Shown here in pieces: positions 16,863 to 58,897 of a stretch of DNA of 64,000 nt. The notes under the pieces are model-generated. The model was given only the letters and a program-made list of their open reading frames with translations. It had not been told where the DNA came from and searched no databases. The translations under genes were made by a program, and so were the position numbers. This stretch comes from Candidatus Krumholzibacteriia bacterium (GTDB taxonomy: Bacteria > Krumholzibacteriota > Krumholzibacteriia > LZORAL124-64-63), in the NCBI GenBank assembly GCA_016744705.1, contig JADGDU010000006.1, positions 82,119 through 146,118 of the forward strand, read 5' to 3'. How positions within the stretch are numbered: position 1 is the stretch's first letter; the number at the start of each line of letters is the position of its first letter.

Positions 16863-18176
16863 TTATTCTTCCTGAGCAATCACCTGGCCGCCAATGATCA
16901 CTTCACGGGCCGGTTCAGGGTGGCAAAGCAACAAGGCGGCCACGGGGTCATGGGCGCCGTCGTAACCAATGGATTCCAGATCGAAAACGGCCAGGTCGCA
17001 GGCTTTGCCAACAACAAGGCTGCCAACATCTTCACGGCCGAGGCAGCCGGCCCCGCCCAGGGTGGCCATTTCCAAAACTTCGTTGATACTCATGGCGGCA
17101 GCGCCATGGATCACACGGTGCAGCAGCAAAGTTTGCCGCAATTCAGCCAGCATGTTGCTGCTATCATTGCTGGCCGAGCCATCAACTGCCAAGCCCACTG
17201 GGGATCCGGCGGCCTGCAGGTCCCGAACCCGGCAGACACCGGATCCCAGACGCATATTCGAAGTGGGGCAATGGGCAATGCCCACCCCGGCTTTACCCAA
17301 TCGGGCCACTTCCGCATCGTCAAACCAGATGCCGTGAGCCAGCCAGACGTCGTCTCCGAGCCAGTCCACCGATTCCAGAAAATCTACGGGGCGCTGTTTG
17401 TACATATTGAGACAATAGGTGTTTTCATCCTGGGTCTCACTCAAGTGGGTGTGCATACGGATGCCGTGTTTGCGGGCCAGGGCCGAAGTGCTTTTCATGA
17501 GCTCGGGGCTCACCGAAAAGGGCGAACAGGGGGCCAGGGCGATGCGCACCATGGCACCGGGCTCTGGATCGTGGAACTTGGCAATGACCCGTTCGCAATC
17601 GGCCATGATGGTGTCTTCATCCTGGACCACAGAGTCTGGGGGCAGACCGCCGTCTTTCACCGAGCGGCTCATGCTGCCGCGGGTGGGGTGGAAGCGGATG
17701 CCGGCGTCTCGGGCAGCCAGAATGGTGATGTCGATGAGTTGTTCCGAGGCATCTTGGGGGAAAAGATAATGATGGTCGGTGGTGCAGGTGCAACCGCTGC
17801 GCATCAACTCTTTGAAACCGACCAGGGCGCCCTGGTAAAACTGATCGTCCGTCAGTTGGGCCCACACCGGGTACAGGGTTTTCAACCAAGGGAACAATTC
17901 GCTGTCAGCCACAGGTCCGTAAGCACGGGTGCGCGTTTGGTACAAATGGTGATGGGTGTTGATCAGACCTGGCAAAACCACGCATCCGGTGGCGTCGTGC
18001 TTTTGAAACTTTTCCTGGGGGATGTCTTCAATGATGTCAGGGGCAGGGCCTGAGCCAACGGCTATAATCATGCCGTCACGGGAGGCGACCCAACCGGTTT
18101 TCAAAACCTCTCGTTGGTCGTTCATCGTGACGAGGGTTTCGGCATTCTCCAGTAGAAAAAGTTTTGCATCGCTCAA
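16863..18176 (-). CDS. 8-oxoguanine deaminase (amidohydrolase, ATZ/TRZ family)
   Basis: 437 residues. Metal-binding motifs are NTHHHLYQT (about 70), TDHHYLF, HTHLSETQDE, LAHGIWFDD and the catalytic Asp in AVDGSASNDSSN. CPTSNMRLGSG is the substrate-pocket signature of this subgroup. The overall pattern fits 8-oxoguanine deaminases, which convert 8-oxoguanine to uric acid and ammonia; hydroxyatrazine-type hydrolases are the main alternative. The start is TTG at 18176 with GGAG upstream. It is divergent, 108 bases apart, from a FAD subunit of a molybdenum hydroxylase, so this pair looks like a second purine locus feeding urate to the island at 33-61 kb. Confidence 0.82.
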   Translation of the reverse strand: MSDAKLFLLENAETLVTMNDQREVLKTGWVASRDGMIIAVGSGPAPDIIEDIPQEKFQKHDATGCVVLPGLINTHHHLYQTRTRAYGPVADSELFPWLKTLYPVWAQLTDDQFYQGALVGFKELMRSGCTCTTDHHYLFPQDASEQLIDITILAARDAGIRFHPTRGSMSRSVKDGGLPPDSVVQDEDTIMADCERVIAKFHDPEPGAMVRIALAPCSPFSVSPELMKSTSALARKHGIRMHTHLSETQDENTYCLNMYKQRPVDFLESVDWLGDDVWLAHGIWFDDAEVARLGKAGVGIAHCPTSNMRLGSGVCRVRDLQAAGSPVGLAVDGSASNDSSNMLAELRQTLLLHRVIHGAAAMSINEVLEMATLGGAGCLGREDVGSLVVGKACDLAVFDLESIGYDGAHDPVAALLLCHPEPAREVIIGGQVIAQEE

Positions 18177-18284
18177 GGTGGTGCTCCAAAGGGAAAAAAG
18201 ATCAATTGCGAGTCGTGCTATTCACATCCACTTCGATAAAGTATAGTTGGGACGTTATCAACGCCAATTGTGAAAGAAGGCACT

Positions 18285-19196
18285 ATGCGAAATTTTAAAG
18301 ATTGCAGGACTGCCAATTCTCCTGCCGAAGCCGTGGTTATGCTCACGACTGGGCCCGGCCAAGGCTGCTTCCTGGCCGGTGGGACAAATATTAACAGGGC
18401 TTGCCCGGATTGCGATTTCCTGGTTGATATCACCCAGGCAGGCCTCTCTGGCATTGATGGCAGCCCAGAGGGTGATGTGCTTATTGGTGCCACCACCTCC
18501 CTTCAGGAATGCCTCGACAGCGGGGTTTTAAAAGATTTTGCCGGTGGTGCCATCAGTTGGGTTGCTGGCCAATATCGCAATCGTGACATTCGAACTTCTG
18601 CCACCATTGGTGGGAATCTTTGCCACGCCCTGCCCTCTGCGGATATGGCTCCGGTGCTTATGGTCCTGGGGGCAGTCTGCATCATTATTGATGAAGACAG
18701 TCAGGAAAGTGTGCCCCTGGAAGATTTTTTTGTGCTTCCTGGCCAAACCGTGCTGGATAGCCGCCTGCTGGCAGGGCTGGTCCTGCCTGGGCGGGCGGGA
18801 CGGTGGCAGTGCCAGAGCCACAAACTGACCCGCTCGGCAGAGGGCGTTGCCTTGGTGCAAGTGGCGGTGGCCCTCGAGGTTATAGACGGGATCATCCATC
18901 TGGCCCGCATTGCTTTGGGTGGCGTGGGACCCACGCCTTTACGTTGTCATCTTGCCGAACAGCTTCTGACAGATTTGAAGGTGGCCGAAATGACACCGGA
19001 GTTGGTGGAGGATGTGGCTTTGATCGCTGCCAGCGAGTGCGATCCCGCGGATGATGACCTGGCGTCAGCGGAATACAGAACCGACATGGTGCGCGTATTC
19101 ACCCGCCGTCTGATTTGCCGGGTTCTGGCCGAAGAGGGCATGGATGAGTGCCCTGAGTCCGATCCTGTGGACGATGACCACGGTGGGGCGGCATGA
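18285..19196 (+). CDS. FAD-binding subunit of a molybdenum hydroxylase (xanthine dehydrogenase family), orphan
   Basis: 303 residues with the two FAD-binding signatures of CO-dehydrogenase/XDH medium subunits: LAGGTNINRAC (about 30-40) and RTSATIGGNLCHALPSADMA (about 101-120). The C-terminal domain contains ALGGVGPTPLRC and YRTDMVRVFTRRL. The acidic last ~20 residues (PESDPVDDDHGG) are unusual. No Fe-S or Mo subunit lies next to it. The xdhD-like gene at 38203 has both of those but no FAD domain, so the two could be partners, as ygfM and xdhD are in E. coli; this is inference. The ATG at 18285 has GAAGG six bases before it. Confidence 0.85.
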   Translation: MRNFKDCRTANSPAEAVVMLTTGPGQGCFLAGGTNINRACPDCDFLVDITQAGLSGIDGSPEGDVLIGATTSLQECLDSGVLKDFAGGAISWVAGQYRNRDIRTSATIGGNLCHALPSADMAPVLMVLGAVCIIIDEDSQESVPLEDFFVLPGQTVLDSRLLAGLVLPGRAGRWQCQSHKLTRSAEGVALVQVAVALEVIDGIIHLARIALGGVGPTPLRCHLAEQLLTDLKVAEMTPELVEDVALIAASECDPADDDLASAEYRTDMVRVFTRRLICRVLAEEGMDECPESDPVDDDHGGAA

Positions 19197-19328
19197 TTAC
19201 CCTTGCCAAGAGTTCGGGGACCTGAAAGAATAAGTGGAAAGATTTTCATTCATTTGTATTTCATAATGACGATAGATCTGGATTGGAGTCCGGAACAACA
19301 CCCCCTTCTGGGGAAAATGGAGGATAAG

Positions 19329-19946
19329 ATGAAGATGCGTAAAACAAGTCTCCTGCTGATTTTGGCCTCATTGGCCGCTTTGGTGATCCTGAGTGGTTGT
19401 GGTGGAGGCAAGCAGGTTACCCGTGTGGATATTGAAGAGCAGATCGATCTTTCCGGTGAGTGGAATGATATCGACAGCCAACACGTTTCCGCGGCCTTGG
19501 AAACACAAATCACCAACAGTGCCTGGGTGGAAGACTTCCGTGCCGAAAACGGGAAAAAGCCTTACCTCATTGTGGGCACCGTGCGGAATAAAACTCCCGA
19601 ACATATCGCCGTAAAAACGTTCATCGCCGACCTGGAACGCTCCTTCATCAACGGTGGACGGGTCAAGGTTGTGGCTTCCGCTGAAGAGCGGGATCAGATC
19701 CGCGGCGAACGGGCCGACCAACAGGAATTTTCCAGCCAGGAAACCATGAAAAGCTGGGGCCGTGAAAAAGGCGCCGACTACATGCTCATGGGTGAGATCA
19801 ACATGATCATGGACCAGGAAGGTGGCGATCAGGTCAAGTACTACCAAGTGGATTGTTACCTGGTGGATCTGGAAGACAATACCAAAGTTTGGGCCGGCTT
19901 CGAGAAAATTAAGAAGTTCGTGGGCCGCAGCAAATACAAGGGTTGA
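19329..19946 (+). CDS. LpoB-like penicillin-binding-protein activator lipoprotein
   Basis: 205 residues with a lipoprotein signal (LLLILASLAALVILSGCGGG). The conserved body has GEWNDIDSQHVSAALETQI, RSFINGGRVKVVAS and KGADYMLMGEINMIMDQE, the LpoB/PBP-activator fold (TolB-like N-domain). In Proteobacteria LpoB activates PBP1b at the outer membrane. GGAGG is five bases before the ATG at 19329. It overlaps the next gene by one base (TGATG). The neighbour is a COG3014-type lipoprotein, a pairing seen widely with LpoB-like proteins. Confidence 0.8.
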   Translation: MKMRKTSLLLILASLAALVILSGCGGGKQVTRVDIEEQIDLSGEWNDIDSQHVSAALETQITNSAWVEDFRAENGKKPYLIVGTVRNKTPEHIAVKTFIADLERSFINGGRVKVVASAEERDQIRGERADQQEFSSQETMKSWGREKGADYMLMGEINMIMDQEGGDQVKYYQVDCYLVDLEDNTKVWAGFEKIKKFVGRSKYKG

Positions 19947-33091: not shown

Positions 33092-33104
33092 AAATAAAAA
33101 AAAC

Positions 33105-33133: not shown

Positions 33134-33209
33134 TGTCCTCTTGGATAGGCACTTTGTGTGGCTGATGACCTTCAGCACACCATTATCTGCAAAACGCCGG
33201 GAGATTCCC

Positions 33210-34667
33210 ATGGATATGAAACTCACCAAAATTAATGAAGAAATCGTCACTAAAGCTGCTGCCCGCTGTAAGAAGCAAGGGATTATCATCCCCACCCTGG
33301 CCCAGCAAAAAGATCCCAACCTTGTACCTGACGAAATCAAATCCCAGCTCAAGGATGTTGGGCTTCTGGATTTTAATCCCCTGAATCTTTTTCGCATCAC
33401 CTGGAAAAACGATCCCAAAACCGGCCTGTTCAATGATGGAAATATTGTTGAATTCCCCAGCGAACTGACTGGCGTTAAAGCCCGCATCGTCGGCCTGGTG
33501 GGCAAGCACTTCCCTACGGGATCCCATAAGGTGGGTGCTGCTTTTGCGTGCTTGGTGCCCCGCCTGGTGACTGGCGAATTTGATCCTACCAGCCAATTGG
33601 CTGTGTGGCCCAGCACTGGTAATTACTGCCGTGGTGGTGCCTTTGATGCAAAACTTCTGGATTGCAAGTCCGTGGCCATTTTGCCCGAAGAGATGAGCCA
33701 GGAACGTTTCAATTGGTTGAATGGTGTAGCCGATGAAGTGATCGCCACTCCTGGTTGCGAATCCAATGTGAAAGAAATCTATGACAAATGCTGGGAACTG
33801 CGGGAGACCCGTCCTGAATGTGTCATTTTTAATCAGTTTGATGAATTTGGCAATCCCATCTGGCACTACAATGTGACCGGTGGCATCATTGAAGAAATTT
33901 TCCAAAGAATTGCCAAGCCTGGTCAGCGGATGGGTGCCTATGTCTCTTCCACTGGTAGTGCCGGAACCATCGCTGCTGGCGATTTCCTGCGGACCAAACA
34001 CCCTGGCATGATTGTCACCGCAAGCGAGGCCCTGCAATGTCCTACCCTGTACTCCTGTGGTTTTGGTGGCCACCGCATTGAAGGCATTGGCGACAAGCAC
34101 GTGCCATGGGTGCACAATGTGCGCAACACCGATGTGATCAGTGCTGTGGATGATCAGCAAACCATGGATCTGCTGCGCCTCTTCAACGAAGAAGACGGTA
34201 AAGCTGTCCTGGCCGAATCCGGTGTTCCCCAGGAAACCATCGACGAGTTGCCTTTGTTGGGCATCAGCAGTATCTGCAACCTCGTTTCCGCTATTCAAAC
34301 GGCCAAATATTATGAGATGGATGAACGGGACATCATCTTCATGCCCTTGACTGACTCTGCGGAAATGTACACCAGCCGCTTTGCCGAATTGAATGAGCAA
34401 CAGGGTGCTTACACCCGCGATCAGGCTCAGCGTGATCAGGCTCGCTGGTTGCACGGCAACACCCCTGATTACTTCCGTGAACTGAGCTACCATGACCGCA
34501 AAACCCTGCACAACTTCAAGTACTTCACCTGGGTGGAACAACAGGGTCGCAGCGTAGAAGAATTGCGTCAATTGTGGGATCGGGACTTCTGGACCGAGAC
34601 CTTCAATGTGACTGACCACTGGGATAAACGCATCGCCGAATTCAATGAGCGGATCAAGTTGGCCTAA
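33210..34667 (+). CDS. PLP-dependent fold-type II enzyme (cysteine synthase-like), first gene of purine operon
   Basis: 485 residues. Fold-type II features are the PLP lysine in [13 protein letters not shown] (about 107), the Asn-loop [13 protein letters not shown] and the glycine-rich phosphate loop [13 protein letters not shown]. It lacks the NAFK and TTDGNHGRG motifs of canonical diaminopropionate ammonia-lyase YgeX. Its place before ygeY, carbamate kinase and ygeW is where ygeX sits in comparable clusters, so it may do the same job (diaminopropionate-type beta-elimination to pyruvate and ammonia); that is inference. GGGAG precedes the ATG at 33210; an upstream in-frame ATG at 33141 lacks such a site. 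Confidence 0.75.
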
Positions 34668-34758
34668 GGCCCATCTGCAAGGTGATCGACAGTGTTGGCT
34701 TGGCCTGAAAATGGCCAGGCCATCCCCCAAAAAAATGAAAATTTCAGGAGGCAGTAAA

Positions 34759-35961
34759 ATGCAGGATTTCGAGAAAATTTTAGAAAAAGCTCAGGAATAC
34801 AAAGCCGACATGACCAAGTTTCTGCGGGACATGATTCGCATTCCCAGCGAAAGCTGTGATGAGAAACTGGTCGTTCTGCGCATCAAGGAAGAGATGGAAA
34901 AAGTTGGTTTCGACAAAGTAGAAATCGACCCCATGGGCAACGTGCACGGTACCATCGGTCACGGACCTACCCTCATTGCTTACGATGCTCACATCGACAC
35001 CGTTGGTGTTGGCAACATGGACAACTGGAACACTGACCCTTACGAAGGCTTCGAAGATGATGAAGTCATCGGCGGCCGTGGTGGCAGTGACCAGGAGGGC
35101 GGCATGGCCTCCATGGTTTATGCTGGAAAAATTATCAAGGAACTGGGTCTTGAAGATGAGTACACCTTGGTGATGGTCGGTACCGTCATGGAAGAAGACT
35201 GCGACGGCCTCTGCTGGCAGTACATCGTCAACGAAATGGATCTCAAACCTGAGTTTGTCATCTCCACCGAGCCTACTGATGGCGGCATTTACCGTGGGCA
35301 CCGGGGTCGTATGGAGATCAAAGTTACCACCAGTGGCATCAGCTGCCATGGTTCCGCTCCCGAACGTGGTGACAACGCCATCTTCAAAATGGCTCCCATC
35401 CTGGGTGAGCTCGAAGAGCTGCACACTCGGTTGATCACTGATGAATTCCTGGGCAAAGGCACCTTGACTGTGTCTGAAGTCTTCTTCTCTTCTCCTTCCC
35501 GTTGCGCCGTGGCTGACTCCTGCACCGTGTCCATCGATCGCCGCCTGACTGTGGGCGAAGATAAGGAATATGCTCTGGGCCAGATTCGCGATTTGCCATC
35601 GGTGAAGAAAGCTGACGCCAAAGTGGAAATGTACTACTACGAGCGGGCAGCCTATACCGGACTTGTGTATCCCACTGATTGCTATTTCCCCACCTGGGTT
35701 GTGGCCGAAGATCACGTGGCTTGCCAGTCAGTTGCAGAGAGTTATAAAAAACTGTTCAAAAAAGAACCACGCATCGACAAATGGACTTTCTCCACCAATG
35801 GCGTTTCCATCACCGGACGTTATGGCATTCCGACCATTGGTTTCGGACCTGGCAAAGAAGCCCAGGCCCACGCTCCCAACGAAGTGACCTGGAAAGAGGA
35901 TCTCGTGACCTGCGCTGCCCTCTATGCCGCTCTGCCTAAAGTTTATCTGAGCAAAAAATGA
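34759..35961 (+). CDS. ygeY: YgeY family M20-type hydrolase
   Basis: 400 residues, a binuclear zinc peptidase/deacylase of family M20. Motifs are [11 protein letters not shown] (about 74-84), the metal and catalytic acidic residues in GSDQEGG and [23 protein letters not shown], and a C-terminal His in EAQAHAPNE. It matches the YgeY selenium-metabolism-linked hydrolases of the E. coli yge-ygf region, and is thought to hydrolyse an open-chain ureido intermediate of purine breakdown. AGGAGG lies eight bases before the ATG at 34759. The 91-base gap before it has no other feature. Confidence 0.9.
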
Positions 35962-35969
35962 GGGAAGAA

Positions 35970-36917
35970 ATGAAAGATACAGTTGTAGTAGCCGTGGGTG
36001 GAAATTCCATCATTCGGGATGAAGCCCACAAGACAGTGGCAGATCAATATGACTCTGTTGCCGAAACTTGTGTGCACTTAGCGGACATTGTTGAAGCTGG
36101 CTACCGGCTGGTCATCTGCCACGGAAATGGACCCCAGGTGGGGTTCATTCTTCGGCGGTCGGCCATCGCCTTTGATGCGGCCGGCCTGCATGAAGTTCCT
36201 CTGTCCAGTTGTGTGGCAGATACGCAGGGTGCCATCGGTTTCCAGATCCAACAGGCTTTGGAAATTGAATTGAAAAAACGGGGCATTAACAAAAAGACGG
36301 CCACCATCGTTACGCGTGTGGTTGTCGATTCTGCAGACTCCGGTTTTCAGAATCCCACCAAGCCTATTGGCTCTTTTTTCACCAAGGAAAAAGTGGATCA
36401 GATTCAGGAGTCATACCCGGATTGGAAATTTGTCGAAGATTCGGGTCGTGGATTCCGCCGTGTGGTGGCTTCTCCTGTGCCGGAAGAGATAGTGGAACTG
36501 GATGTTATCAAAGATGTTGTGGATAGGGACTATGTGGTCATCGCTTGTGGCGGTGGTGGCATCCCAGTGATCCGCACCAACGATGGATTCGAAGCTGTGG
36601 ATGCTGTGATCGATAAAGATCTGGCTTCTGCTCTTCTGTCCGAAAAGATCAATGCAAAACGATTCATCATTTCCACCGGCGTCCAACATGTGTGTTTGAA
36701 CTTCGGGCAGGCTGATGAGAAGAAATTGGAACACATTGGTCTGGACGAGTTGAAACAGTACGTTAAGGAAGGTCATTTTGCCGCCGGTAGCATGCTGCCC
36801 AAAATCGAAGCGGCCATCGACTTTATAGAAAAGGGTGGCGAAGAAGTCATCATCACCGCGCCTGAATATCTCAAGGACGCCGTGAACCACAAAACTGGAA
36901 CCATCGTCACCAAGTGA
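35970..36917 (+). CDS. arcC: Carbamate kinase
   Basis: 315 residues. Amino-acid-kinase motifs are VVAVGGNSIIRDEAHKT, CHGNGPQVGFILRRS, SGRGFRRVVASPVPEEI, CGGGGIPVIR, DKDLASALLSEKINA and AAGSMLPKIEAAIDFIEKGG, all typical of ArcC/YqeA. It converts carbamoyl phosphate and ADP to ATP, carbamate then falling to ammonia and CO2. In this operon it is the energy-yielding step after YgeW. The second in-frame ATG (35970) is chosen since GAGGGA precedes it; using the ATG at 35958 would overlap ygeY by four bases. Confidence 0.93.
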   Translation: MKDTVVVAVGGNSIIRDEAHKTVADQYDSVAETCVHLADIVEAGYRLVICHGNGPQVGFILRRSAIAFDAAGLHEVPLSSCVADTQGAIGFQIQQALEIELKKRGINKKTATIVTRVVVDSADSGFQNPTKPIGSFFTKEKVDQIQESYPDWKFVEDSGRGFRRVVASPVPEEIVELDVIKDVVDRDYVVIACGGGGIPVIRTNDGFEAVDAVIDKDLASALLSEKINAKRFIISTGVQHVCLNFGQADEKKLEHIGLDELKQYVKEGHFAAGSMLPKIEAAIDFIEKGGEEVIITAPEYLKDAVNHKTGTIVTK

Positions 36918-36933
36918 ATCTAAGGAGATTGCC

Positions 36934-38130
36934 ATGAGCCGAATTTGCACAAACGAGTTGATCAAGAAACTGGGTTTGCTGAACACCGAGAATATGTATC
37001 TCAACGACTTCCTGCACACCTGGGACAAAACAGATCAGGAACTGTCCGCCATTTATACCGTGGCCACCATTCTTGAAGATATGCGGAAAGATAATATCTC
37101 TTCCAAAGTTTTCGATAGTGGTTTGGGTATTTCGCTGTTCCGCGACAATTCCACTCGCACCCGTTTCAGCTTTGCCAGCGCCTGCAACCTGCTGGGCCTG
37201 GAAGTTCAGGATCTGGATGAGGGTAAATCACAGGTCGCCCATGGCGAGACCGTGCGTGAAACCGCCAACATGGTTTCCTTCATGGCCGACATCATCGGTA
37301 TCCGCGATGACATGTACATTGGCAAGGGCCATGAATACATGAAAGAAGTGGCGAAGTCCATTGAGGTTGGTCATCAGGAAGGTGTTCTCGAGCAACGCCC
37401 CACGGTGGTGAACCTGCAGTGTGATGTTGATCACCCCACCCAGTCCATGTCCGACATGCTTCACATCATCAATACCTTTGGTGGCGTAGAAAACCTGAAG
37501 GGTAAAAAGATTGCCATGACCTGGGCTTATTCACCCTCGTACGGCAAACCTCTTTCCGTTCCTCAGGGCATCATCGGCCTGATGACTCGGTTCGGAATGG
37601 ATGTTTCTTTGGCTCACCCCGAAGGCTACGAAGTGATGCCTGAAGTGGAAGAAATTGCCCGGCTGAATGCCGAAGCATCCGGAGGCTCCTTCACTAAAGC
37701 GGCCAGTATGGGCGACGCCTTTGCTGATGCCGATATCGTTTACCCCAAAAGCTGGGCTCCGTTTGTGGCCATGGAAAAACGGACCGACTTGTATGGCAAA
37801 GGCGACCAGGATGGAATCAACGCTCTGGAAAAAGAACTGCTCAAGCAAAACGCTCTGCATAAAGACTGGGAGTGCACGGAAGAGCTGATGGCCAAGACCA
37901 AAAACGGAAAAGCTTTGTACATGCATTGTCTTCCCGCAGACATCACTGGCGTTTCCTGTGATGAGGGTGAAGTGGCCGCATCGGTGTTCGACCGGTACCG
38001 GGTGCCTCTGTATAAAGAGGCCAGTTACAAGCCATATATCATCGCTGCCATGATTTTCCTGAGTAAATTCAAGAACCCGGCAGATACGTTTGCGGCTCTG
38101 ATGAAACAAGATAAGAATCGGATTCTTTAA
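36934..38130 (+). CDS. ygeW: Knotted carbamoyltransferase YgeW
   Basis: 398 residues, close to E. coli YgeW (396). Carbamoyl-phosphate binding segment STRTRFSFASACNLLG (about 70-85), then KSQVAHGETVRETANMVSFM, QCDVDHPTQSMSDMLHI and HCLPADITG. The family binds carbamoyl phosphate in a knotted fold. In the purine cluster it is thought to move a carbamoyl group from a ureido intermediate to phosphate, feeding carbamate kinase. AAGGAG is seven bases before the ATG, 16 bases after arcC. Confidence 0.93.
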   Translation: MSRICTNELIKKLGLLNTENMYLNDFLHTWDKTDQELSAIYTVATILEDMRKDNISSKVFDSGLGISLFRDNSTRTRFSFASACNLLGLEVQDLDEGKSQVAHGETVRETANMVSFMADIIGIRDDMYIGKGHEYMKEVAKSIEVGHQEGVLEQRPTVVNLQCDVDHPTQSMSDMLHIINTFGGVENLKGKKIAMTWAYSPSYGKPLSVPQGIIGLMTRFGMDVSLAHPEGYEVMPEVEEIARLNAEASGGSFTKAASMGDAFADADIVYPKSWAPFVAMEKRTDLYGKGDQDGINALEKELLKQNALHKDWECTEELMAKTKNGKALYMHCLPADITGVSCDEGEVAASVFDRYRVPLYKEASYKPYIIAAMIFLSKFKNPADTFAALMKQDKNRIL

Positions 38131-38202: not shown

Positions 38203-40779
38203 ATGATTAGATTTTCACTGAACGGCAAGGATATTGAATACACAGGCGATCCCGAAGAATCATTACTTCAGTGGTTGCGATTCGAGACGGAAGTGAAAAG
38301 CGTCAAGGACGGCTGCTCTGGTCAAGGGACCTGCGGCGCCTGCATCGTTGAACTCAATGGAAAACCCAGCTTGGCCTGTTGCAAAACTATGGGCAAGCTG
38401 GAGAATGCAACAATTACCACACTGGAAGGCATGCCTGAATTGACCAGGCAAATTCTGGGTGAGGCCTTTGTGGCCTCGGGCGCCGTCCAGTGTGGTTTTT
38501 GTAGCCCGGGTATGTTGACCCGGACGAAGCTGCTGCTGGATAAAAACCCCAATCCTACCCGGGAACAAGTCACCAAAAAAATCAAATCCCATTTGTGTCG
38601 CTGCACCGGATACGTCAAGATCGTTGATGCGATCATGATGGCATCGGAAGCGATTCGAGAGGGCAAAACTATTACTTCCAATGAGGGAGCCCAATTGGGC
38701 TCATCTCCGCGAAAGTTGCAGGCCTTGGAGCGTGCAGTGGGAGATCCTCTGTTTATTGGTGGTATGAAATTCGACAATATGCTTCATGGGACGCTGCATT
38801 TCAGCGAGCATCCCAGGGCTAGGATTGTTCGTATTGATACCTCCAAAGCCGAGGCTTTGGAGGGTGTTGTTCGGATCTTTACGGCCAAGGACATCCCCGG
38901 CAGCCGCAAAGTGGGTATCGTGATCAACGATTGGGATATGTACATCGCCGAGGGTGAGACCACCCGGTACATCGGTGATGTGTTGGCTATGGTTGTGGCC
39001 GAAAACAAACGCATCTCCCGTGAGGCATCGGCCTTGATCGAGGTTGAGTACGAAGTGCTGGAGCCCGTGACCGATGTGCACGAGGCCTTGAAGGATAAGA
39101 TCAAGGTTCACGAAGGTGGCAACCTGCTCAAAGAAACCACCATCTGCTACGGTGAGAATGTGGATGAGGTATTTGCCAATTCTAAATACGTGGTGAAAGA
39201 GACTTTCACGACTCAGGTCGTTGAACATGCTTTCATGGAACTGGAAAGTTCTGTGTCCCAGTATGAAGATGGGCGCCTCACGGTTTATTCTCAGGGCCAG
39301 GGTATTTTTGAGGACCGGAGCCAAATTTCGAAAATGTTGGGGCTGGATATCAAAGACCTCAACGTCAAGTTGGTTCCTGCCGGTGGAGCCTTTGGCGGCA
39401 AGGAAGATCTGACTGTACAGGGTCATGCCGCATTGGGCGCTTACCATTTGAAAACTGCCGTCAAGGTCAAACTGGACCGGACGGAGTCCATGCGGATGCA
39501 CCCCAAACGTCATCCTATGATCATGGATTACACCCTGGGCTGCGATGCTGATGGAAAGTTCACTGCATTGCATGCTCGTATTCTGGGTGATACCGGCGCT
39601 TATGCTTCGGTGGGTGGCCCGGTTATGGAAAGAGCCGCTACCCATGCCGGTGGTGCTTATTACATTCCCCACATCGACGTCAAATCCAAAGCGGTTTACA
39701 CCAACAATGTTGTCTGTGGTGCCTTCCGGGGGTTCGGTGTCAACCAAGTCACCTTCGCCATTGAAGGCATGATTGATGAACTCTGCGCTCAAACAGGTTT
39801 TGATCGCTGGGAGATTCGGTATAAAAACGCCCTGGATAAAGGTTTAAAAACCACCAGCGGTCATAAGTTGCGCAAAGAAGTGGGCCTCAAAAAGACCCTG
39901 GAACTGGTCAAAAAAGACTACGACAGTGGCAACGTGACAGGCCTGGCCTGCGGTATCAAAAACTGCGGTATTGGTAACGGCGTGCCTGAGTTGAGCGAAG
40001 CCCGCATTGAAATTCTGGCCGACGAGAAAATCAAGCTGTACCACGGCTGGAGCGAAATGGGGCAGGGCATCGACACCGTGGCCCAGCAAATGCTTTGCCA
40101 GTGCATCGGTTTGGACACTCTTGATAATATTGAAGTTATTGTTGCTACTGATAGCGAAACCAAGGCTGGAAATACCACTGCCAGCCGTGGGACGTTCCTG
40201 GTTGGCAAAGCTGTTCTGGCTGCCGCTGAAGATCTGATAAAAGATCTGAAAACCCAGAGCCTGAGTGATCTGGCCGGCAAAACTTACGACGGATCTTACC
40301 TCTGTGACTGGACCACCTCCTCAGATTTTGATGGTGATGTCATCAGTCACTTTGCCTACAGTTTCGCCACCCAGTTGGTGACCCTGAGTGATGAAGGAAA
40401 AATCACCAAGGTGACGGCTGCCCATGATAGCGGCATCGTCGTTAATCCTAAACTCTACGAAGGTCAGATTGAAGGCGGCGTGGTGATGGGACTGGGTTAT
40501 GCCCTGTCTGAAAACCTGGTGCTGGATAAGGGCCATATTGCAGATAATCGTTTCCGGAGTCTTGGTTTGCTGCGTTCCACCGATGTGCCGGAAATTGAAG
40601 TGATCCCTGTGGAGATCTTTGATACCGATGCGCCATTCGGAGCCAAGGGTGTGGGCGAAATTTGCTGTATCCCCACGGCGGCCGCCGCTGCTGGTGCCTA
40701 TCGTGAATTTGATGGCCATAAGCGGGTCATCTTGCCTATCGCCGCTTTGGAAAAACCCACTGCGGTTTTAAAAAAATAA
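38203..40779 (+). CDS. xdhD: XdhD-like molybdenum hydroxylase: fused 2Fe-2S and Mo-binding subunits
   Basis: 858 residues. The N-terminal ~155 hold two 2Fe-2S clusters: CSGQGTCGACIVEL with a following CC (about 37-59), and CGFCSPGMLTRTKLL with CRCTGY (about 97-137). The rest is the Mo-binding subunit: GGAFGGKEDLTVQGHAALGA (about 393), FRGFGVNQVTFAIEG, YHGWSEMGQGIDTVAQQML, and the active-site Glu in KGVGEICCIPTAAAAAG (near 816). This is the XdhD (E. coli, 956 residues) arrangement of selenium-linked hydroxylases. No FAD domain is present; a FAD subunit must come from elsewhere (18285 or 58021). It is predicted to oxidise or reduce a purine. Confidence 0.9.
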   Translation: MIRFSLNGKDIEYTGDPEESLLQWLRFETEVKSVKDGCSGQGTCGACIVELNGKPSLACCKTMGKLENATITTLEGMPELTRQILGEAFVASGAVQCGFCSPGMLTRTKLLLDKNPNPTREQVTKKIKSHLCRCTGYVKIVDAIMMASEAIREGKTITSNEGAQLGSSPRKLQALERAVGDPLFIGGMKFDNMLHGTLHFSEHPRARIVRIDTSKAEALEGVVRIFTAKDIPGSRKVGIVINDWDMYIAEGETTRYIGDVLAMVVAENKRISREASALIEVEYEVLEPVTDVHEALKDKIKVHEGGNLLKETTICYGENVDEVFANSKYVVKETFTTQVVEHAFMELESSVSQYEDGRLTVYSQGQGIFEDRSQISKMLGLDIKDLNVKLVPAGGAFGGKEDLTVQGHAALGAYHLKTAVKVKLDRTESMRMHPKRHPMIMDYTLGCDADGKFTALHARILGDTGAYASVGGPVMERAATHAGGAYYIPHIDVKSKAVYTNNVVCGAFRGFGVNQVTFAIEGMIDELCAQTGFDRWEIRYKNALDKGLKTTSGHKLRKEVGLKKTLELVKKDYDSGNVTGLACGIKNCGIGNGVPELSEARIEILADEKIKLYHGWSEMGQGIDTVAQQMLCQCIGLDTLDNIEVIVATDSETKAGNTTASRGTFLVGKAVLAAAEDLIKDLKTQSLSDLAGKTYDGSYLCDWTTSSDFDGDVISHFAYSFATQLVTLSDEGKITKVTAAHDSGIVVNPKLYEGQIEGGVVMGLGYALSENLVLDKGHIADNRFRSLGLLRSTDVPEIEVIPVEIFDTDAPFGAKGVGEICCIPTAAAAAGAYREFDGHKRVILPIAALEKPTAVLKK

Positions 40780-40807: not shown

Positions 40808-42091
40808 ATGTCGCTCTATCTGAAAAACGCCCGGTTCATTGATTGGCAATCGCTCAAAATCCAGTCTGCCAACATCAAGGTGGACGAAGGAGTGTCCGGG
40901 GGGATTTCATTTGTGGACAGCATTCCCTCAACCGGAGGATCTGATTCTTCCGTCAGGGTCATTGATTGCAAGGGAAAATTTGTTACCAAAGCTTTTGGCT
41001 GCGGTCACCATCACATTTATTCCACTCTGGCCCGGGGGATGCCGGCACCCAAAAAAATCCCCATGAATTTCCAGGAAATTTTGACTTACGTCTGGTGGCA
41101 TGTGGACAAATGCCTGGATAAAGACATGATCGAAGCCAGCGCCTTGGCGTCGGCTCTCTATTGTGCCAAAAACGGTATCACTTTCATCATCGACCACCAT
41201 GCCTCTCCTTTCAACATTGAAGGCTCCCTAACCACCATTGCCGATGCCTTCGACAAGGTGGGAGTCTCTCACCTGTTGTGTTATGAGCTGTCTGATCGCG
41301 ACGGAGAGGGCCCTCGTGAAGCAGGGCTAGCCGAGCATGAACGTTTCCTCGCGGGAGGCGGACAGGGCCACGTGGGGCTACATGCGTCTTTTACAGTGGG
41401 GGATGACCTGCTGAAACGTTCGGTGGAGCTGGCTCAGAAGCACGGGACCGGATTGCATATTCATGTGGCGGAAGACAAAGCAGACCAAGTGGCCTGCTTG
41501 AAGGACCACAATACGCGGGTCGTCAAACGACTTCATGAGGCAGGCGGATTATCCCTTCCGCAAACCATTCTGGGACACTGCATCCATTTGGATGATGAAG
41601 AAAAAGAGATTATCCGCTCCACCGAAGCCTGGGTTGTGCAGAACACCGAAAGCAATCTGAACAACAACGTGGGCCTGGCTAACTACAACGAAATTTCTGA
41701 AAAGATCATGCTGGGTACTGACGGTATGCACTGCGATATGTTGCGTAGCGCCAAGGCCACGTTCCTGTCGGGGCAACCTGTAGAGGGAACAGGCTTTGAT
41801 ACGGCCTACGCCCGATTCCGGAATGTGCATCGGTATATAGCCGAGTGCGGATTCAAAGGTGATACGGACAACAACCTGGTAGTCCTGGATTACGATTCCC
41901 CTACGGAACTGACGGACGATAACTTCCTCGGGCATTTCGTTTATGGGATCAATTCCTCCCATGTGGAAACGGTTGTGGCCCAGGGTAAGGTCATCGTCGA
42001 AGACCGTGTTCTGAAAACTGCCGATGAGGCCGAGATATTGGATTATGCCCGGCAGATGGGGAACAAACTCTGGGCCGAGATGAAAAAATAA
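40808..42091 (+). CDS. ssnA: SsnA-type aminohydrolase
   Basis: 427 residues, metallo-dependent hydrolase. Motifs are FGCGHHHIYSTLARGMPAPK, IIDHHASPFNIEGSL, LHIHVAEDKADQVA, LGHCIHLDDEEK, WVVQNTESNLNNNVG and the Asp in GTDGMHCDM. It corresponds to SsnA, always found with ygfK and hyuA in selenium-linked purine clusters, and probably opens or deaminates a dihydropurine-type ring. GGAGG lies six bases upstream; 28 bases separate it from xdhD and five bases from hyuA. Confidence 0.9.
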   Translation: MSLYLKNARFIDWQSLKIQSANIKVDEGVSGGISFVDSIPSTGGSDSSVRVIDCKGKFVTKAFGCGHHHIYSTLARGMPAPKKIPMNFQEILTYVWWHVDKCLDKDMIEASALASALYCAKNGITFIIDHHASPFNIEGSLTTIADAFDKVGVSHLLCYELSDRDGEGPREAGLAEHERFLAGGGQGHVGLHASFTVGDDLLKRSVELAQKHGTGLHIHVAEDKADQVACLKDHNTRVVKRLHEAGGLSLPQTILGHCIHLDDEEKEIIRSTEAWVVQNTESNLNNNVGLANYNEISEKIMLGTDGMHCDMLRSAKATFLSGQPVEGTGFDTAYARFRNVHRYIAECGFKGDTDNNLVVLDYDSPTELTDDNFLGHFVYGINSSHVETVVAQGKVIVEDRVLKTADEAEILDYARQMGNKLWAEMKK

Positions 42092-42096
42092 TCCAG

Positions 42097-43512
42097 ATGA
42101 GTACTAAAAAGCACATTAAAAATGGAACCCTGGTCACGCCGGAAGGAATTTTTTCCGGCGATGTTCTCACCGATGGCAGCACCATTGCCGCCGTCGGTGA
42201 AGTGGGGCCTGAATCTACTGCAGAAGTCATTGATGCCACGGGTTGTTACGTTTTACCCGGTGGTGTGGATGTGCACACCCATTTGAATCTTAAGCTGGGA
42301 GACCGTCAAGTTTCCGATGGTTTTTATGCGGGCTGTGTGGCTGCGGCCTGGGGTGGAACCACCACCATCATTGACCATCCGGAAGCTGGGCCTGCGGGCT
42401 GCAACCTTCATCATCAGCCTGAATACTATCGAGGCTTGCTGGAAAAAGAGTCCGTTATTGATTACGGCATCCACGGCGTTTTTCAGCATGTGGATGAGGC
42501 CATCTTGGCGGAAATTCCTTCCTTGGTCCAACAGGGCTATTCTTCTGCAAAAGTCTATATGACTTACGGCAACATGTTGGTGCCGGGTGAAGTCCAGCGT
42601 GTACTTGAGGCCATGAAAAATGCTGGTGGTTTGGCGGCTTTCCATGCTGAAGATGATGCGGAGATCAGCAGGCTACGGGCGGAATTTGCCGAGAATGGCC
42701 ATCTGGCTCCTATCTATCATGCCAAAAGCCGCCCTGACTACACTGAGGCTGACAGCATTAAAATCATTGCTGATTTGGCTGCCAAAACCGGAGCGACGGT
42801 TTATATCGTGCACCTGTCCACGGGCAAGGGTTTGGATGTCATTCGGGAGGCCAAAAAATCCGGTGTGAAAATCATTGCCGAAACATGCCCTCAGTATCTC
42901 CTGCTTGACGATTCCTGTTATGAAAAAACAGACGGATTGAAATACATCATGGCACCTCCATTGCGCGAAAAAGGCAATGGCGAGGCTCTGTGGGCCGGCT
43001 TGGCCGATGGTAGCATCAGTGTGGTGGCCACGGATCACTGTTCCTTCTCCTATGCGGATAAGAAAAAATTCTGGCAGGGAGATTTTCGGAAGGCGCCGGG
43101 TGGATCTCCCAGCGTGGAAACACGTCTGCCCCTGCTATTTTCCGAAGGTGTGTTGAAGGGACGATTGAGTTTGCAGCGGTTTGTGGACCTGGTATCTGCG
43201 AATCCTGCCAAAATCATGGGCATCTATCCGCAGAAAGGCGTCTTGCAACCGGGAGCAGACGCAGACCTGATCATTTGGGATCCCGCAGCTGAGAAAATCA
43301 TATCCCCTGAAAGCCTGCACCAACTTTGCGATTATGGCCCTTTTGATGGCATGAACGTAAAAGGTTGGCCCAGGAAGACGATGTTGAGGGGAACAATCAT
43401 TGTGGAAAACGACAGATTCATCGGAAAAAAGGGCAGTGGGCAATTCCTGCAGCGTGCTCCTTTTAAAGATGAAACTTTGTGTAGTTCTGATCATCATGGA
43501 GGCAAACGATGA
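42097..43512 (+). CDS. hyuA: Dihydropyrimidinase/hydantoinase-type hydrolase
   Basis: 471 residues. Cyclic-amidohydrolase motifs are PGGVDVHTHLNLKLGD (His pair), AAAWGGTTTIIDHPEAGP, SSAKVYMTYGNML (the lysine that is carboxylated to bridge two metals), AFHAEDDAEIS, VYIVHLSTGKGLDVI and VVATDHCSFSYADKKKFW. It corresponds to HyuA/YgeZ of the E. coli region and should open a five- or six-membered ureide ring of a purine intermediate. Five bases follow ssnA, and it overlaps ygfK by ATGA, so translation is coupled. Confidence 0.92.
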   Translation: MSTKKHIKNGTLVTPEGIFSGDVLTDGSTIAAVGEVGPESTAEVIDATGCYVLPGGVDVHTHLNLKLGDRQVSDGFYAGCVAAAWGGTTTIIDHPEAGPAGCNLHHQPEYYRGLLEKESVIDYGIHGVFQHVDEAILAEIPSLVQQGYSSAKVYMTYGNMLVPGEVQRVLEAMKNAGGLAAFHAEDDAEISRLRAEFAENGHLAPIYHAKSRPDYTEADSIKIIADLAAKTGATVYIVHLSTGKGLDVIREAKKSGVKIIAETCPQYLLLDDSCYEKTDGLKYIMAPPLREKGNGEALWAGLADGSISVVATDHCSFSYADKKKFWQGDFRKAPGGSPSVETRLPLLFSEGVLKGRLSLQRFVDLVSANPAKIMGIYPQKGVLQPGADADLIIWDPAAEKIISPESLHQLCDYGPFDGMNVKGWPRKTMLRGTIIVENDRFIGKKGSGQFLQRAPFKDETLCSSDHHGGKR

Positions 43513-46500
43513 GTAGCGATCTGTTCACCTGTACTTCTCTGGAATCCCTTTTTAAGTGGGTTTTTGAATACGATAAAACTGGCATGATCCTGGGTATTTC
43601 CAAGGCTCTCTTTTACATCCCAGGTCAGAATGAACCGTTCACTATGGAGCGCTACGGCCAAACTCTGGAAACTCCTTTGGGTCTGGCTGCTGGTCCTCAC
43701 ACTCAGCTTTCTCAGAATATCATTTGTGCTTGGCTCACGGGTGGCCGGTACATGGAATTGAAAACGGTTCAGGTGTTGGATGAACTGGAAGTGACCAAGC
43801 CCTGCATCGACATGTCCGATGAAGGCTATAACTGCGAGTGGTCCCAGGAACTGAAGCTGCATGAATCTTTTGATGAATACCTGAACGCCTGGATCATGCT
43901 GCATGTCTTGCGTGATAAGTTCAATCTGCCGGAAGATCAGAGCGGGTTCATCTTCAACATGAGTGTGGGCTACAACCTGGAAGGGATCATGAGCCCCACC
44001 GTCCAGAAATTCCTGGACATGATGGCCGATTGCACTGAATTGCGGGATAAGAAAATTGAAGAAATTTCCGCCTTCTTCCCTCGTATTAAAGAGATCAACA
44101 TTCCCTCAGAAATTACGCGCAATGTTACGATTTCCACTATGCACGGCTGCCCCCCTGCTGAAACGGAAAAAATTGGTCGCTATTTCATTGAAGACCGCAA
44201 ATTGGATACGACCATTAAGTTGAATCCCACTCTGCTGGGGCCAGAAAAACTTCGGGAAATTCTAAACGACAACCTGGGTTTTGAAACAGTGGTCCCCGAT
44301 TTGGCCTTTGAGCACGATCTGGAATATGAAGCCGGAGTGGCTCTGATCCAATCACTTCTGGAAAGTGCCAAGAAGGTGGGGGTGGCTTTCAATATCAAGC
44401 TGACCAATACTCTCGAAACCACTAATGTCCGGCAAAATCTGCCCAAACATGAAGAGATGGTTTACATGAGTGGGCGTGCACTGCACCCCATCAGTATCAA
44501 TCTGGCGGCCCGGTTGCAAAAAGATTTTAAGGGCAAATTGGATATCTCTTTCTCAGGTGGGGCCGATTGTTTCAACATTTCCGATGTCCTCAAATGTGGT
44601 TTGATGCCAGTGACCATCTGCTCGGATGTTTTGAAGCCTGGCGGGTATGGGCGTATGAGCCAGTATCTGGAAAACATTGAGGCGGATTTCGATAAAGTGG
44701 GCGCCACCAGCATCACCGATTACATGCTGAAGACTTCGGGTCAAGCCACTCTGGAAGAGGCCATCGTCGCGAACCTGACACAGTACGCAGAAGAAGTTAC
44801 GGCCAAAGCTTATTACAACAAAACCGAATATCCCTATGAATCCATCAAGACGGCTCGGGATCTGGAATTCTTTGATTGTGCCGCCGCTCCCTGCATGACG
44901 GAGTGCCCTGCTGGCCAGGAAATCCCCCGCTATCTGAATTATGTGGCTACCGGCGATATGGACCGAGCCTACCAAACTGTGTTGGCCACGAATCCATTCC
45001 CCAATGTTCAGGGTGTTGTATGTGATCACGCGTGCCAGTCAAAATGCACCAGGATCAACTACGAAAAACCCCTGCTCATCCGTGAAGTGAAACGTTACAT
45101 CTCGGATAAATTTGAACGGGATCAATTGAAGCCCGAAGAAGCTAACGGAATTAAAGTGGCCATTATCGGTGGAGGACCTTCCGGTCTCTCATGTGCTCAT
45201 TTCCTGGCTCTGTCTGGCTATGAAATTGATCTCTACGAAGCCAAAGACTTCCTGGGTGGTATGGCAGCTGACGGAATTCCTATCTTCCGTTTGGATGATG
45301 AACGCCTGAAAAAGGATGTTGATGGCATCCTCGCTCTGGGTGTTAAGGCGCACATGAACACCCGGATCACCAAAGAGATGTTCACGGAAATCAGATCTAA
45401 AAGTGATTACGTTTACATTGCTGTAGGCGCCCAGCAGAGCATGCCCCTGGATATTACCGGCATTGACAGTGAGGGCGTATTTGATCAATTGAGTTTCCTC
45501 AGTAAGGTTCGCAAAAACGAAACTATCCCTACGGCAGAAAAAATTGTGGTCATCGGCGCAGGTAATTCAGCTATGGATGCAGCCCGAACCGCCAAACGTC
45601 TGGTGGGTAAGGATGGCGAAGTTGCCATTGTTTACAGGCGCACCCGACGAGAAATGCCCTGTGATCCTGAAGAAGTGCGCGGAGCCTTGGAAGAAGGCAT
45701 CCAATTGGTCGAACTGGCTGCTCCTGAATCCATTGTCGAGGAAAATGGGAAAGTTAAGGGCCTGATGGTGAGCCGCATGAAATTGGGCAAGCCAGATGAT
45801 AGTGGACGTGCCCGGCCCATCAAAATCGAAAATTCCGAATACGTGATTGATGCCGACATCGTGATTCCGGCTATTGGTCAGAAAGTTGTGCTGGATTTCC
45901 TGCCTGGGAACTCCATGACTATCAACGAAAAGACCTATGAAACTGAAATGGCTGATGTCTTTGGTGGTGGGGACGCCTTCCGGGGTGCATCCAGTTTGAT
46001 TCACGCCATTGGTGATGGTCAGAATGTTGCCGTGGAGATCGTTAATCGGGCCGGTAAGGAGCACTTGAAGTTTCATACCCCAACCGATCACCGAAATGTG
46101 GACCTGGATCATTTGCAGGTTTTGCAGGCTCGGCGCGATTTTGGGTCTGGACTGTCGGAAGTGGCTCCTGATGAACGCATCAACTTTGATCTCTTCATGA
46201 GCACGCTCAGTGATGAGGAAGCCACTGAAGAATCGGCCAGATGTTTGCAGTGCGATTTGGTTTGTAATGTCTGCACCACGGTTTGTCCCAACAGAAGTAA
46301 TATGTATTACGAGATGAAGCCGGTGGTCATGCCGGTACAACGTGCGGTCTTGACGGGCAGCAATGTGGAGATCATTCAGGATCAGACCGTTGAAATCAAC
46401 CAGCAGTATCAGATCATCAACATTGGCGATTATTGCAATGAATGCGGCAATTGCACCACTTTCTGTCCTACAAACGGACAACCTTTCCTGGATAAACCCA

Positions 46501-46808
46501 AATTTCATCTGACGGAAGAAAGCTTCCAAAATGCTGACTTTGGTTTCCATTTCGTGGGCTCTTCAAGTATGAAGATCAAAACGAAAACGGGAATTTCAAT
46601 GTTGAAAGTGGATGGAGAAAAATTCCACTATGAAGACAATGATGTTTCTGTCATCTTGGATAGTGAAAGTCTGAATGCAGAAAAGGTGACTTTCAAAAAT
46701 GATGACTGCAACTCAAAAGAATTAATTTCCATCGCTCAGTTTGTTGTGCTTTACAAGAATGTTCGCCCAACTACGCCATTTGCCGATCTGGAAATGGAAG
46801 TGCGCTGA
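43509..46808 (+). CDS. ygfK: YgfK: multidomain iron-sulfur flavoprotein (putative selenate reductase subunit)
   Basis: 1099 residues in three parts. Residues ~1-450 resemble a dihydroorotate-dehydrogenase/PreA TIM barrel (TLETPLGLAAGPHTQLSQNI, NITMHGCPP-like TISTMHGCPPAETEKIG, FSGGADCFNISDVL). Residues ~450-890 are a GltD/PreT-like module: cluster segment CAAAPCMTECPAGQEIPRYL, FAD site AIIGGGPSGLSCAHFLAL (about 552), NAD(P)H site VVIGAGNSAMDAARTAKRL (about 681). The C-terminal ~200 carry ferredoxin-type motifs CLQCDLVCNVCTTVCP and CNECGNCTTFCP. It is likely a reductase moving electrons from NAD(P)H to a purine intermediate. The selenate name is historical. Confidence 0.93.
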   Translation: MSSDLFTCTSLESLFKWVFEYDKTGMILGISKALFYIPGQNEPFTMERYGQTLETPLGLAAGPHTQLSQNIICAWLTGGRYMELKTVQVLDELEVTKPCIDMSDEGYNCEWSQELKLHESFDEYLNAWIMLHVLRDKFNLPEDQSGFIFNMSVGYNLEGIMSPTVQKFLDMMADCTELRDKKIEEISAFFPRIKEINIPSEITRNVTISTMHGCPPAETEKIGRYFIEDRKLDTTIKLNPTLLGPEKLREILNDNLGFETVVPDLAFEHDLEYEAGVALIQSLLESAKKVGVAFNIKLTNTLETTNVRQNLPKHEEMVYMSGRALHPISINLAARLQKDFKGKLDISFSGGADCFNISDVLKCGLMPVTICSDVLKPGGYGRMSQYLENIEADFDKVGATSITDYMLKTSGQATLEEAIVANLTQYAEEVTAKAYYNKTEYPYESIKTARDLEFFDCAAAPCMTECPAGQEIPRYLNYVATGDMDRAYQTVLATNPFPNVQGVVCDHACQSKCTRINYEKPLLIREVKRYISDKFERDQLKPEEANGIKVAIIGGGPSGLSCAHFLALSGYEIDLYEAKDFLGGMAADGIPIFRLDDERLKKDVDGILALGVKAHMNTRITKEMFTEIRSKSDYVYIAVGAQQSMPLDITGIDSEGVFDQLSFLSKVRKNETIPTAEKIVVIGAGNSAMDAARTAKRLVGKDGEVAIVYRRTRREMPCDPEEVRGALEEGIQLVELAAPESIVEENGKVKGLMVSRMKLGKPDDSGRARPIKIENSEYVIDADIVIPAIGQKVVLDFLPGNSMTINEKTYETEMADVFGGGDAFRGASSLIHAIGDGQNVAVEIVNRAGKEHLKFHTPTDHRNVDLDHLQVLQARRDFGSGLSEVAPDERINFDLFMSTLSDEEATEESARCLQCDLVCNVCTTVCPNRSNMYYEMKPVVMPVQRAVLTGSNVEIIQDQTVEINQQYQIINIGDYCNECGNCTTFCPTNGQPFLDKPKFHLTEESFQNADFGFHFVGSSSMKIKTKTGISMLKVDGEKFHYEDNDVSVILDSESLNAEKVTFKNDDCNSKELISIAQFVVLYKNVRPTTPFADLEMEVR

Positions 46809-56231: not shown

Positions 56232-57557
56232 TCATTGTGCAGATTGTTCATGGACAAGGCGGCCAGCCACATAAGTGTGAGAAATACTCCTTTCGTCACC
56301 AAGAATAACCAGGCTGAAAAAGAGATCGGCCAAACTGTCCACTCGCTTATATTGCTTAGCTTGAAGTGTGGTGGCCTGGGGGTCGAGCACCACAAAATCA
56401 GCTTCTTTGCCCACATCGAAGTTACCTATCAAATGATCCATGGAGAGAGCCCGGGCTCCTCCCAGGGTGGCCGCATAAAGGGCGTCCCAGGGAGAAAGAT
56501 TTTGCCCTTGCAGTTGAAGCACTTTGTAAGCTTCAGCCAGTGTCCGGAGCATGGAATAGGATGTTCCGCCACCAATGTCGGTAGCCAGTCCCACCCTGAT
56601 TTTATGATCCCGGGCTTTTTTCATATCAAACAAGCCACTGCCTAGAAAGAGATTGGAAGTAGGGCAGAAGGCCATGACGGAGTCCGTTTCCTGGAATCGG
56701 TCATATTCCTGGTTTTCCAGGTGGATGCTGTGTCCAAAAATGCTACGGGGGCCAGTCAATCCGTGGTGATGGTAGACATCAAGATAGTTTTCCCGTTGGG
56801 GGAAAAGTTCTTTGACCCATTGGATTTCTGCCAGATTTTCTGAAAGATGAGTTTGCATGTAGACGTCAGGAAATTCTTGTTTCAAGGCCCCGGCCACGGC
56901 GAGTTGCTCTGCTGTGGAAGTGGGGGCAAACCTGGGGGTGATGGCATAGTGCAGCCGCCCTCGGTTATGGAACGTTTCGATGAGGGCCTTGCTCTGGTCG
57001 TAGCTGGTTTGGGGAGTGTCGAGTAATTCCGCTGGAGCGTTCCGATCCATCATCACTTTTCCGGCAATGAGGCGCATGTTTGTGTGTTCGGCCGCTTCAA
57101 AAAGGGCAGATGCAGAAATGGCATGGACTGAGCAAAAAGCAGAAGCAGTGGTGGTGCCGTTACGCAGAAGTTGTTTCAGGAAGAAGCTGGCCATGTCCGC
57201 AGCATGGTCGGCATCATGAAATTCTTTTTCGGCAGGAAAGGCATGCCTTTCAAGCCACTGCAGCAACTGCTCCCCGTAACCGCCCACAATGGCAGCCTGG
57301 GGGAAGTGCAGATGAGTGTCCACGAAACCGGGAACAATCAGTTTGTCCTGATGGTGGTGAAGGGGACAATCTTGGGGGATGAGATCTTTGCCATCAGCCC
57401 AGGAGCCAAAAAACGTAATGCGCCCCTGTTCCAACAACAGCAGACCATCTTCAAAATGCTGGATGTTTTCATCCGTACAAGATGAGGGATCGCATACGGT
57501 TTTCGCATGGAGAAACCGGCCGCGGATGGCACTTCGTTCGAGTTTTTTGTCGGTCAT
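56232..57557 (-). CDS. guaD: Guanine deaminase
   Basis: 441 residues, metal-dependent amidohydrolase: [70 protein letters not shown] and [20 protein letters not shown], a pattern close to GuaD. It turns guanine to xanthine and ammonia, feeding the xanthine dehydrogenase encoded just upstream on the same strand. It overlaps xdhC by four bases (ATGA) and lies 20 bases before the ABC ATPase, so uptake, deamination and oxidation are in one transcript. Confidence 0.92.
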
Positions 57558-58021
57558 TTTTTAGCAGCTGATTTTACGGCATTGACGATGCTCGTGTAAC
57601 CAGTGCAGCGGCAGAGGTTGCCGGCATGACCCTTTCTGATCTCATCATTGGACATGCTCTGGACGTCGTTTTGCTCCAACAGAGCCGTGCTGCTCATGAT
57701 GAGGCCGGGAGTGCAAAAACCACACTGGACTGCGCCCTCTTCCACATAAGCTTCCTGAATAACAGTGAGTTTGCCGTCTTTGCATTCGCCTTCTACGGTG
57801 CGGATGGCTTTGTCTTTGGCCCACACAGCCAGGTAAAGGCAGGAGTCTAGAGGGGTTTCGTCCACCAGCACAGTGCAGGCTCCACATTCGCCCACGCCAC
57901 AGCCCTGCTTGACACTGGTGTACCCCAGGTCGCGCAGCACATCCATGAGAGATTTGCGGACATCCACATTCAATTCATAAATCTTGCCATTGATGGTCAT
58001 TTCGATATTCATGGTCTTCAT
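57554..58021 (-). CDS. xdhC: Xanthine dehydrogenase 2Fe-2S subunit
   Basis: 155 residues (E. coli XdhC 159). First cluster [21 protein letters not shown], split over residues ~42-62 with a plant-type ferredoxin fold; second cluster CGFCTPG (about 101) and [13 protein letters not shown] (about 138). It passes electrons from the Mo centre to FAD. The ATG at 58021 overlaps the FAD-subunit stop by one base, giving the E. coli gene order xdhA-xdhB-xdhC. Confidence 0.93.
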
Positions 58022-58896: not shown

Positions 58897-58897
58897 A

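Follow-up and report, generated by a model that had tools for sequence, protein, structure and literature searches.

XdhD or XdhAC of the reductive urate pathway converts urate to 2,8-dioxopurine (PMC12507026). In E. coli, ygfM adjoins xdhD, and YgfM co-purifies with active, NADH-dependent XdhD (PMC12507026). YgfM is a separate FAD subunit and the proposed electron input to this fused Fe-S/Mo urate reductase. The XdhAC-type enzymes of Enterococcus and the clostridia have no FAD subunit, and another donor has been assumed (PMC2276186, PMC12507026, PMC12990295). They belong to the selenium-dependent xanthine dehydrogenase/XdhAC group (TIGR03311; E. faecalis EF_2570, C. sporogenes XdhAC), in which Fe-S and Mo parts are fused, no FAD gene lies alongside and no dedicated FAD subunit is known. 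The physiological electron donor of XdhAC is a stated open question (PMC12990295).

Molybdenum-hydroxylase FAD subunits are represented among solved structures by the CO dehydrogenase flavoprotein CutM/CoxM (1ffv_C, 1n60_C), which sits in a complete three-subunit enzyme. 8-Oxoguanine deaminases have also been solved (3hpa, 7ww2; Hall et al. 2010), and enzymes of this type accept isocytosine and guanine as well (PMC6186785). We found no relevant literature on orphan FAD subunits, nor on urate in the Krumholzibacteriia.

The deaminase and FAD-subunit gene pair

The stretch of DNA analyzed here (the window) is 64,000 nucleotides long and comes from a 4.43 Mb draft assembly of 155 contigs that is 94.7% complete. 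The named members of its family are Candidatus Krumholzibacteriia, and the window's own genome is labeled G000 among the family genomes compared. The first-pass annotation described an 8-oxoguanine deaminase gene divergent from the gene of an FAD subunit with no Fe-S or Mo gene next door, and both parts of that description hold. The amidohydrolase gene (16863..18176, minus strand, TTG start) and the FAD-subunit gene (18285..19196, plus strand, 303 aa) are separated by 108 bp (18177..18284). The next gene is an LpoB homologue (19302..19946, plus strand; PF13036, 125.8 bits), with neither an Fe-S nor a Mo gene between.

The deaminase scores 619.1 bits against the 8-oxoguanine deaminase equivalog NF006055, above the cut-off of 532. 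Its nearest solved chain is 3hpa_A (E 1.2e-123), its alignment to the solved enzymes is near full length and its dN/dS is 0.064 between G000 and G003. Its activity, deamination of 8-oxoguanine to urate, is predicted.

In a search of the whole assembly, FAD_binding_5, MoCoBD_1 and Fer2_2 each occur at exactly two loci, all inside the window. One hydroxylase set is complete: XdhC-XdhB-XdhA, which has its own FAD subunit and lies with a guanine deaminase gene (56232..61207, minus strand; the Xdh set at 57.5-61.2 kb). The other is the protein at 38203, described at first as having Fe-S and Mo domains with no FAD domain; the domain search returned Fer2, Fer2_2, MoCoBD_1 and MoCoBD_2 and agrees. Within the assembled genome, this protein is the sole hydroxylase that lacks an FAD subunit, and only one FAD subunit, the protein at 18285, lacks a hydroxylase of its own. 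A different partner hydroxylase, named in the first-pass annotation as evidence against the pairing, was looked for in the assembly and was not found.

Repeated loss of the Fe-S and Mo genes

Of the 38 family genomes, 22 contain an FAD-gene orthologue. Chance arrangement is no concern because the gene holds the same position in these genomes. Sixteen of the 22 have the order deaminase (divergent), FAD, Fe-S, Mo, LpoB, three of them read across a contig end (G014, G030, G036). The FAD gene is an orphan in the other six, namely G000, G001, G003, G005, G023 and G006. LpoB directly follows the FAD gene in the orphan genomes except G023, and in all genomes read that far the FAD locus is followed by LpoB and then a lipoprotein-like ORF. 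The contig of G006 holds just the C-terminal part of the FAD gene, a 189-residue piece.

The Fe-S and Mo genes of relatives occupy the position of a deletion scar in the window (19193..19301, plus strand), which consists of a short ORF with an ATGA overlap of the FAD stop, then sequence from upstream of LpoB. The short ORF at 19193 was considered as a relic of the Fe-S gene start; it is compatible with the start in G002 and too short for proof. In G023, an in-frame remnant ORF of 282 aa lies between the FAD gene and LpoB (L073:9304-10152). In it, the 2Fe-2S domain from the N-terminus of the Fe-S subunit is fused to pieces of the C-terminal region of the Mo subunit.

The junction sequences are unlike one another between G000/G003, G005, G001 and G023. 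The scar spacer is visibly common to G000 and G003, so the loss in this pair predates their split. In a gyrB+rpoB tree, the intact pair G002/G004 is nested in the orphan clade of the same genus, with G005 outside (98% support), and G023 and G006 belong to other genera. The FAD gene tree agrees with the species tree, its deep nodes being weak. On this placement of intact and orphan genomes, the Fe-S and Mo genes were lost at least four separate times, unless both returned to precisely the same site by re-insertion. The comparison of gene order shows that the orphan FAD gene once headed a separate FAD-FeS-Mo operon and is what survives of it.

The proposal of a split enzyme is changed by this result. 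The FAD gene originated in its own operon, not with XdhD; its present pairing with the XdhD-like protein (XdhAC) is supported by exclusion, co-occurrence and selection.

Sequence, fold and selection of the orphan FAD subunit

The orphan protein matches PF00941 (83.4 bits) and PF03450 (67.3 bits). Its AF2 model (pLDDT 87.9, pTM 0.87) has as best Foldseek match 1ffv_C, the CO dehydrogenase flavoprotein (E 9.9e-25, TM ~0.84), and is predicted to keep the normal fold of a hydroxylase FAD subunit. CutM/CoxM is the closest solved fold, but it works in a complete enzyme, whereas the orphan has no partners in cis. The flavin motifs AGGT (A31-T34) and TIGGN (T107-N111) are present, as is D120. The near-invariant D35 and D187 are missing, being N35 and G187 in the window protein.

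E. coli YgfM also lacks both aspartates and shares the D187G change, with Gly-Leu where G000 has Gly-Val. The segment 183-188 is presumably the NAD-binding loop beside the flavin, judged from bovine and rat xanthine oxidoreductase. The loop changes are compatible with a working electron-input subunit because YgfM has a similar Gly-Leu there. Identity of the orphan as YgfM itself was rejected (72.4 bits against a TIGR03312 cut-off of 241.5), and relatives with intact operons score about the same. Orphan FAD proteins are no nearer to YgfM by score than those of complete operons; therefore, convergence is confined to the loop. In-frame TGA codons in other FAD genes were considered as selenocysteine; in G024 and G015 these are terminal stops read through.

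The FAD gene has a dN/dS of 0.108 (dS ~1.4) between G000 and G003. Their divergence postdates the loss since both share the deletion scar. This value resembles those of XdhB (0.104, same pair) and of the FAD genes of intact operons (0.058-0.171), and the FAD gene has thus been under ordinary purifying selection after the loss of the Fe-S and Mo genes. XdhAC has a dN/dS of 0.068 in the same comparison.

Measured against the deaminase, orphan FAD proteins evolve at about twice the rate of those from intact operons. The FAD/deaminase protein branch-length ratio is 1.7-3.7 in orphans and mostly ~1 in intact operons, with some noise from short branches. The 16 intact proteins share 83 invariant positions, of which G000 keeps 70, G005 68, G023 71 and G001 49; the partial gene of G006 keeps 39 of 60. 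Four or more of the five orphan lineages are changed at each of positions 105, 153, 187 and 188 (G000 numbering; P=0.003, random placement), while 36 invariant positions never change in orphans against 21.6 expected. PF00941 scores fall from ~97-107 bits in intact operons to 68-85 in most orphans.

XdhAC and the urate-reduction cluster

The protein at 38203..40779 (plus strand) scores 900.7 bits against TIGR03311 (cut-off 830.45) and is by score a member of the XdhAC group, a urate reductase/xanthine dehydrogenase with fused Fe-S and Mo parts and no FAD gene alongside. That group has no known dedicated FAD subunit; in the window genome, one is available in trans. The surrounding genes at 33.1-46.8 kb are those of the reductive urate pathway. 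PALP (YgeX-like), M20 (YgeY-like), carbamate kinase and OTC (YgeW-like) genes precede xdhAC (33141..38130, plus strand), and SsnA-like, HyuA-like (dihydropyrimidinase) and YgfK genes follow it (40808..46808, plus strand).

E. coli has the same pathway genes. Its ygfM adjoins xdhD, whereas the window FAD gene and xdhAC are 19 kb apart. The two reductases also differ in their Fe-S cysteines: XdhD of E. coli MG1655 (L159:3317-6187) has lost those for 2Fe-2S in its N-terminal ferredoxin-like domain, while the window XdhAC, like XdhC, keeps them. This loss raises the question of the electron route from YgfM to the Mo site.

In known hydroxylases, the first 2Fe-2S loop is turned toward the FAD subunit. 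This loop reads C-x5-C-x2-C in XdhAC (window 38203-38400; L080, L081, L082, L122, L123) and C-x4-C-x2-C in XdhC and in the Fe-S subunit of the lost operon.

A selD gene is present in the window genome, which is not specific for selenium at the Mo site of XdhAC. It has one in-frame TGA in 11 of the 11 genomes tested (G000:C67:1631-2545 and 10 relatives), which suggests selenocysteine use in these bacteria, with SelD itself a selenoprotein.

A close relative of the window XdhAC (at least 67% identity) is found in G000, G001, G002, G003, G005 and G023. It is carried by five of the six orphan genomes versus one of the 16 with complete operons (G002, where XdhAC and an intact operon coexist). Counted the other way, the orphan state occurs in five of six genomes with XdhAC and in one of 16 without it (G006; one-sided Fisher P=0.0013, with no correction for shared ancestry). 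Counted as loss events, XdhAC-bearing lineages account for at least three of the at least four. On a contig of G006 other than that of its orphan FAD gene, an Fe-S gene and the truncated start of a Mo gene lie with no FAD gene on the contig (L119, G006:C82, 1-766), a candidate partner of that orphan.

In two other families of the class (L084 and L086), xdhAC is immediately preceded by an FAD gene that closes another hydroxylase set. In G041 (L084:6605-8893), the Mo gene of that set, which precedes the Fe-S, FAD and XdhAC genes, is broken into two ORFs; L086 has the same gene order with the Mo gene intact.

Regulation and urate supply

The urate cluster of G000 is preceded by the palindrome ATTTTATTNNATAAAA (33084-33099, exact), as are those of G001 and G023; this is the single exact copy in each genome (a 4.43 Mb assembly in G000). 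In G000, it recurs with one mismatch at 61344-61359, between the xdhA operon and the next gene. G005 has one copy upstream of the xdhA operon, and one copy also occurs in the G002 genome. No exact copy was found in G004 and G014, both of which lack XdhAC, or in G003, where the urate cluster is present. ATTTTATTNNATAAAA is a candidate operator, and a YheO-like PAS/HTH protein (48423-49118) is the candidate regulator.

The palindrome is absent from the deaminase-FAD spacer of the window and is not visible in the listed orthologous spacers. The spacer carries a TATAAT-like box toward the FAD gene, and such a box is seen by eye in most relatives' spacers. The view of this locus as a satellite of the same pathway is weakened, since the deaminase pairs with the operon with or without the urate cluster, and a place in the urate regulon is disfavored by the missing palindrome. 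The deaminase had also been proposed to supply the urate feedstock. This role is possible, but it was overclaimed; guanine deaminase and XdhABC at 56-61 kb are a more direct source, beside which the deaminase share of urate is probably small.

Function of the orphan FAD subunit

The reading that we prefer, with a probability of about 0.48, is that the FAD gene is the leftover of a dismantled operon, kept by selection and reassigned to XdhAC. An ancestral three-gene hydroxylase operon (FAD, Fe-S, Mo) diverged from the 8-oxoguanine deaminase gene. The comparison of relatives shows that it lost its Fe-S and Mo genes and retained the FAD gene with its promoter. The FAD protein would then have been reassigned to XdhAC, the only hydroxylase in the genome that lacks an FAD subunit. 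Electrons would pass from NADH to FAD, through two 2Fe-2S clusters and to the Mo site, and XdhAC would reduce urate to 2,8-dioxopurine as E. coli XdhD does with YgfM. The deaminase would provide a minor feed of urate from 8-oxoguanine. Reassignment to XdhAC is likely, though unproven. The sixth orphan genome, G006, also counts for it, with its separate FAD-less Fe-S/Mo pair, as do the D187G change held in common with YgfM and the FAD genes next to xdhAC in L084 and L086. Counting against it are the loss of D35 and D187, with the same flavin-loop columns altered in every orphan lineage; the faster evolution of orphans and the lack of an operator in common with the urate cluster; the intact operon beside XdhAC in G002 and the orphan without XdhAC in G006; and the 19 kb separation, hence no operon support. 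The lack of an FAD subunit alone does not make XdhAC anomalous or call for a missing partner because the E. faecalis and C. difficile versions lack one (PMC2276186, PMC12507026).

The FAD protein may instead have been kept for another job, as a free-standing flavoprotein or with a non-hydroxylase partner, with the correlation with XdhAC arising from common lineage or from redundancy of the old hydroxylase. We consider this unlikely. The convergent flavin/NAD-loop changes in independent orphans and the lack of co-regulation with the urate cluster would fit such a job, and XdhAC works elsewhere without FAD (PMC12990295), but the protein keeps its fold and dinucleotide-binding motifs, and its gene is not linked to any other plausible partner, the neighbors being LpoB and the lipoprotein-like ORF.

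Slow decay of a gene with little or no function is improbable. It would account for the faster evolution of orphans, the invariant positions lost in G001 and G006 and the falling PF00941 scores. The dN/dS of the G000/G003 pair contradicts it in the window's lineage, and the reading frame is free of stops and frameshifts in the five orphans whose full gene was read (that of G003 from two contigs) and in the G006 piece.

There is very little to recommend the orphan as an alternative FAD subunit that swaps with XdhB. Apart from XdhAC, the only Fe-S/Mo subunits that the genome encodes are XdhA and XdhC, but XdhB is intact, adjacent to them and constrained, and the orphan is distant from it (28% identity; 118.9 bits against the XdhB model NF043083, cut-off 310, where XdhB at 58021 scores 384.1). 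Least probable of all is that the orphan still has Fe-S and Mo subunits of its own, encoded in the 5% of the genome that this fragmented draft does not cover. In G000, the syntenic site is sequenced in full and holds neither gene; the site is empty in its sister G003 as well, and the other four orphan genomes likewise lack these genes there.

The preferred reassignment to XdhAC can be extended, tentatively, to subunit capture across the family, in which several XdhAC-bearing lineages independently dismantled the old hydroxylase and re-tuned its FAD subunit to feed XdhAC electrons from NADH. If true, this would supply the electron-input subunit of an XdhAC-type urate reductase. The orphan is a concrete candidate for the electron-input protein of such reductases in one bacterial class, and the repeated loss of two of three subunits is a natural experiment for that candidate. 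Such a history would, moreover, clearly exemplify the loss of the catalytic core from a multi-subunit redox enzyme whose flavin module is kept for another enzyme.
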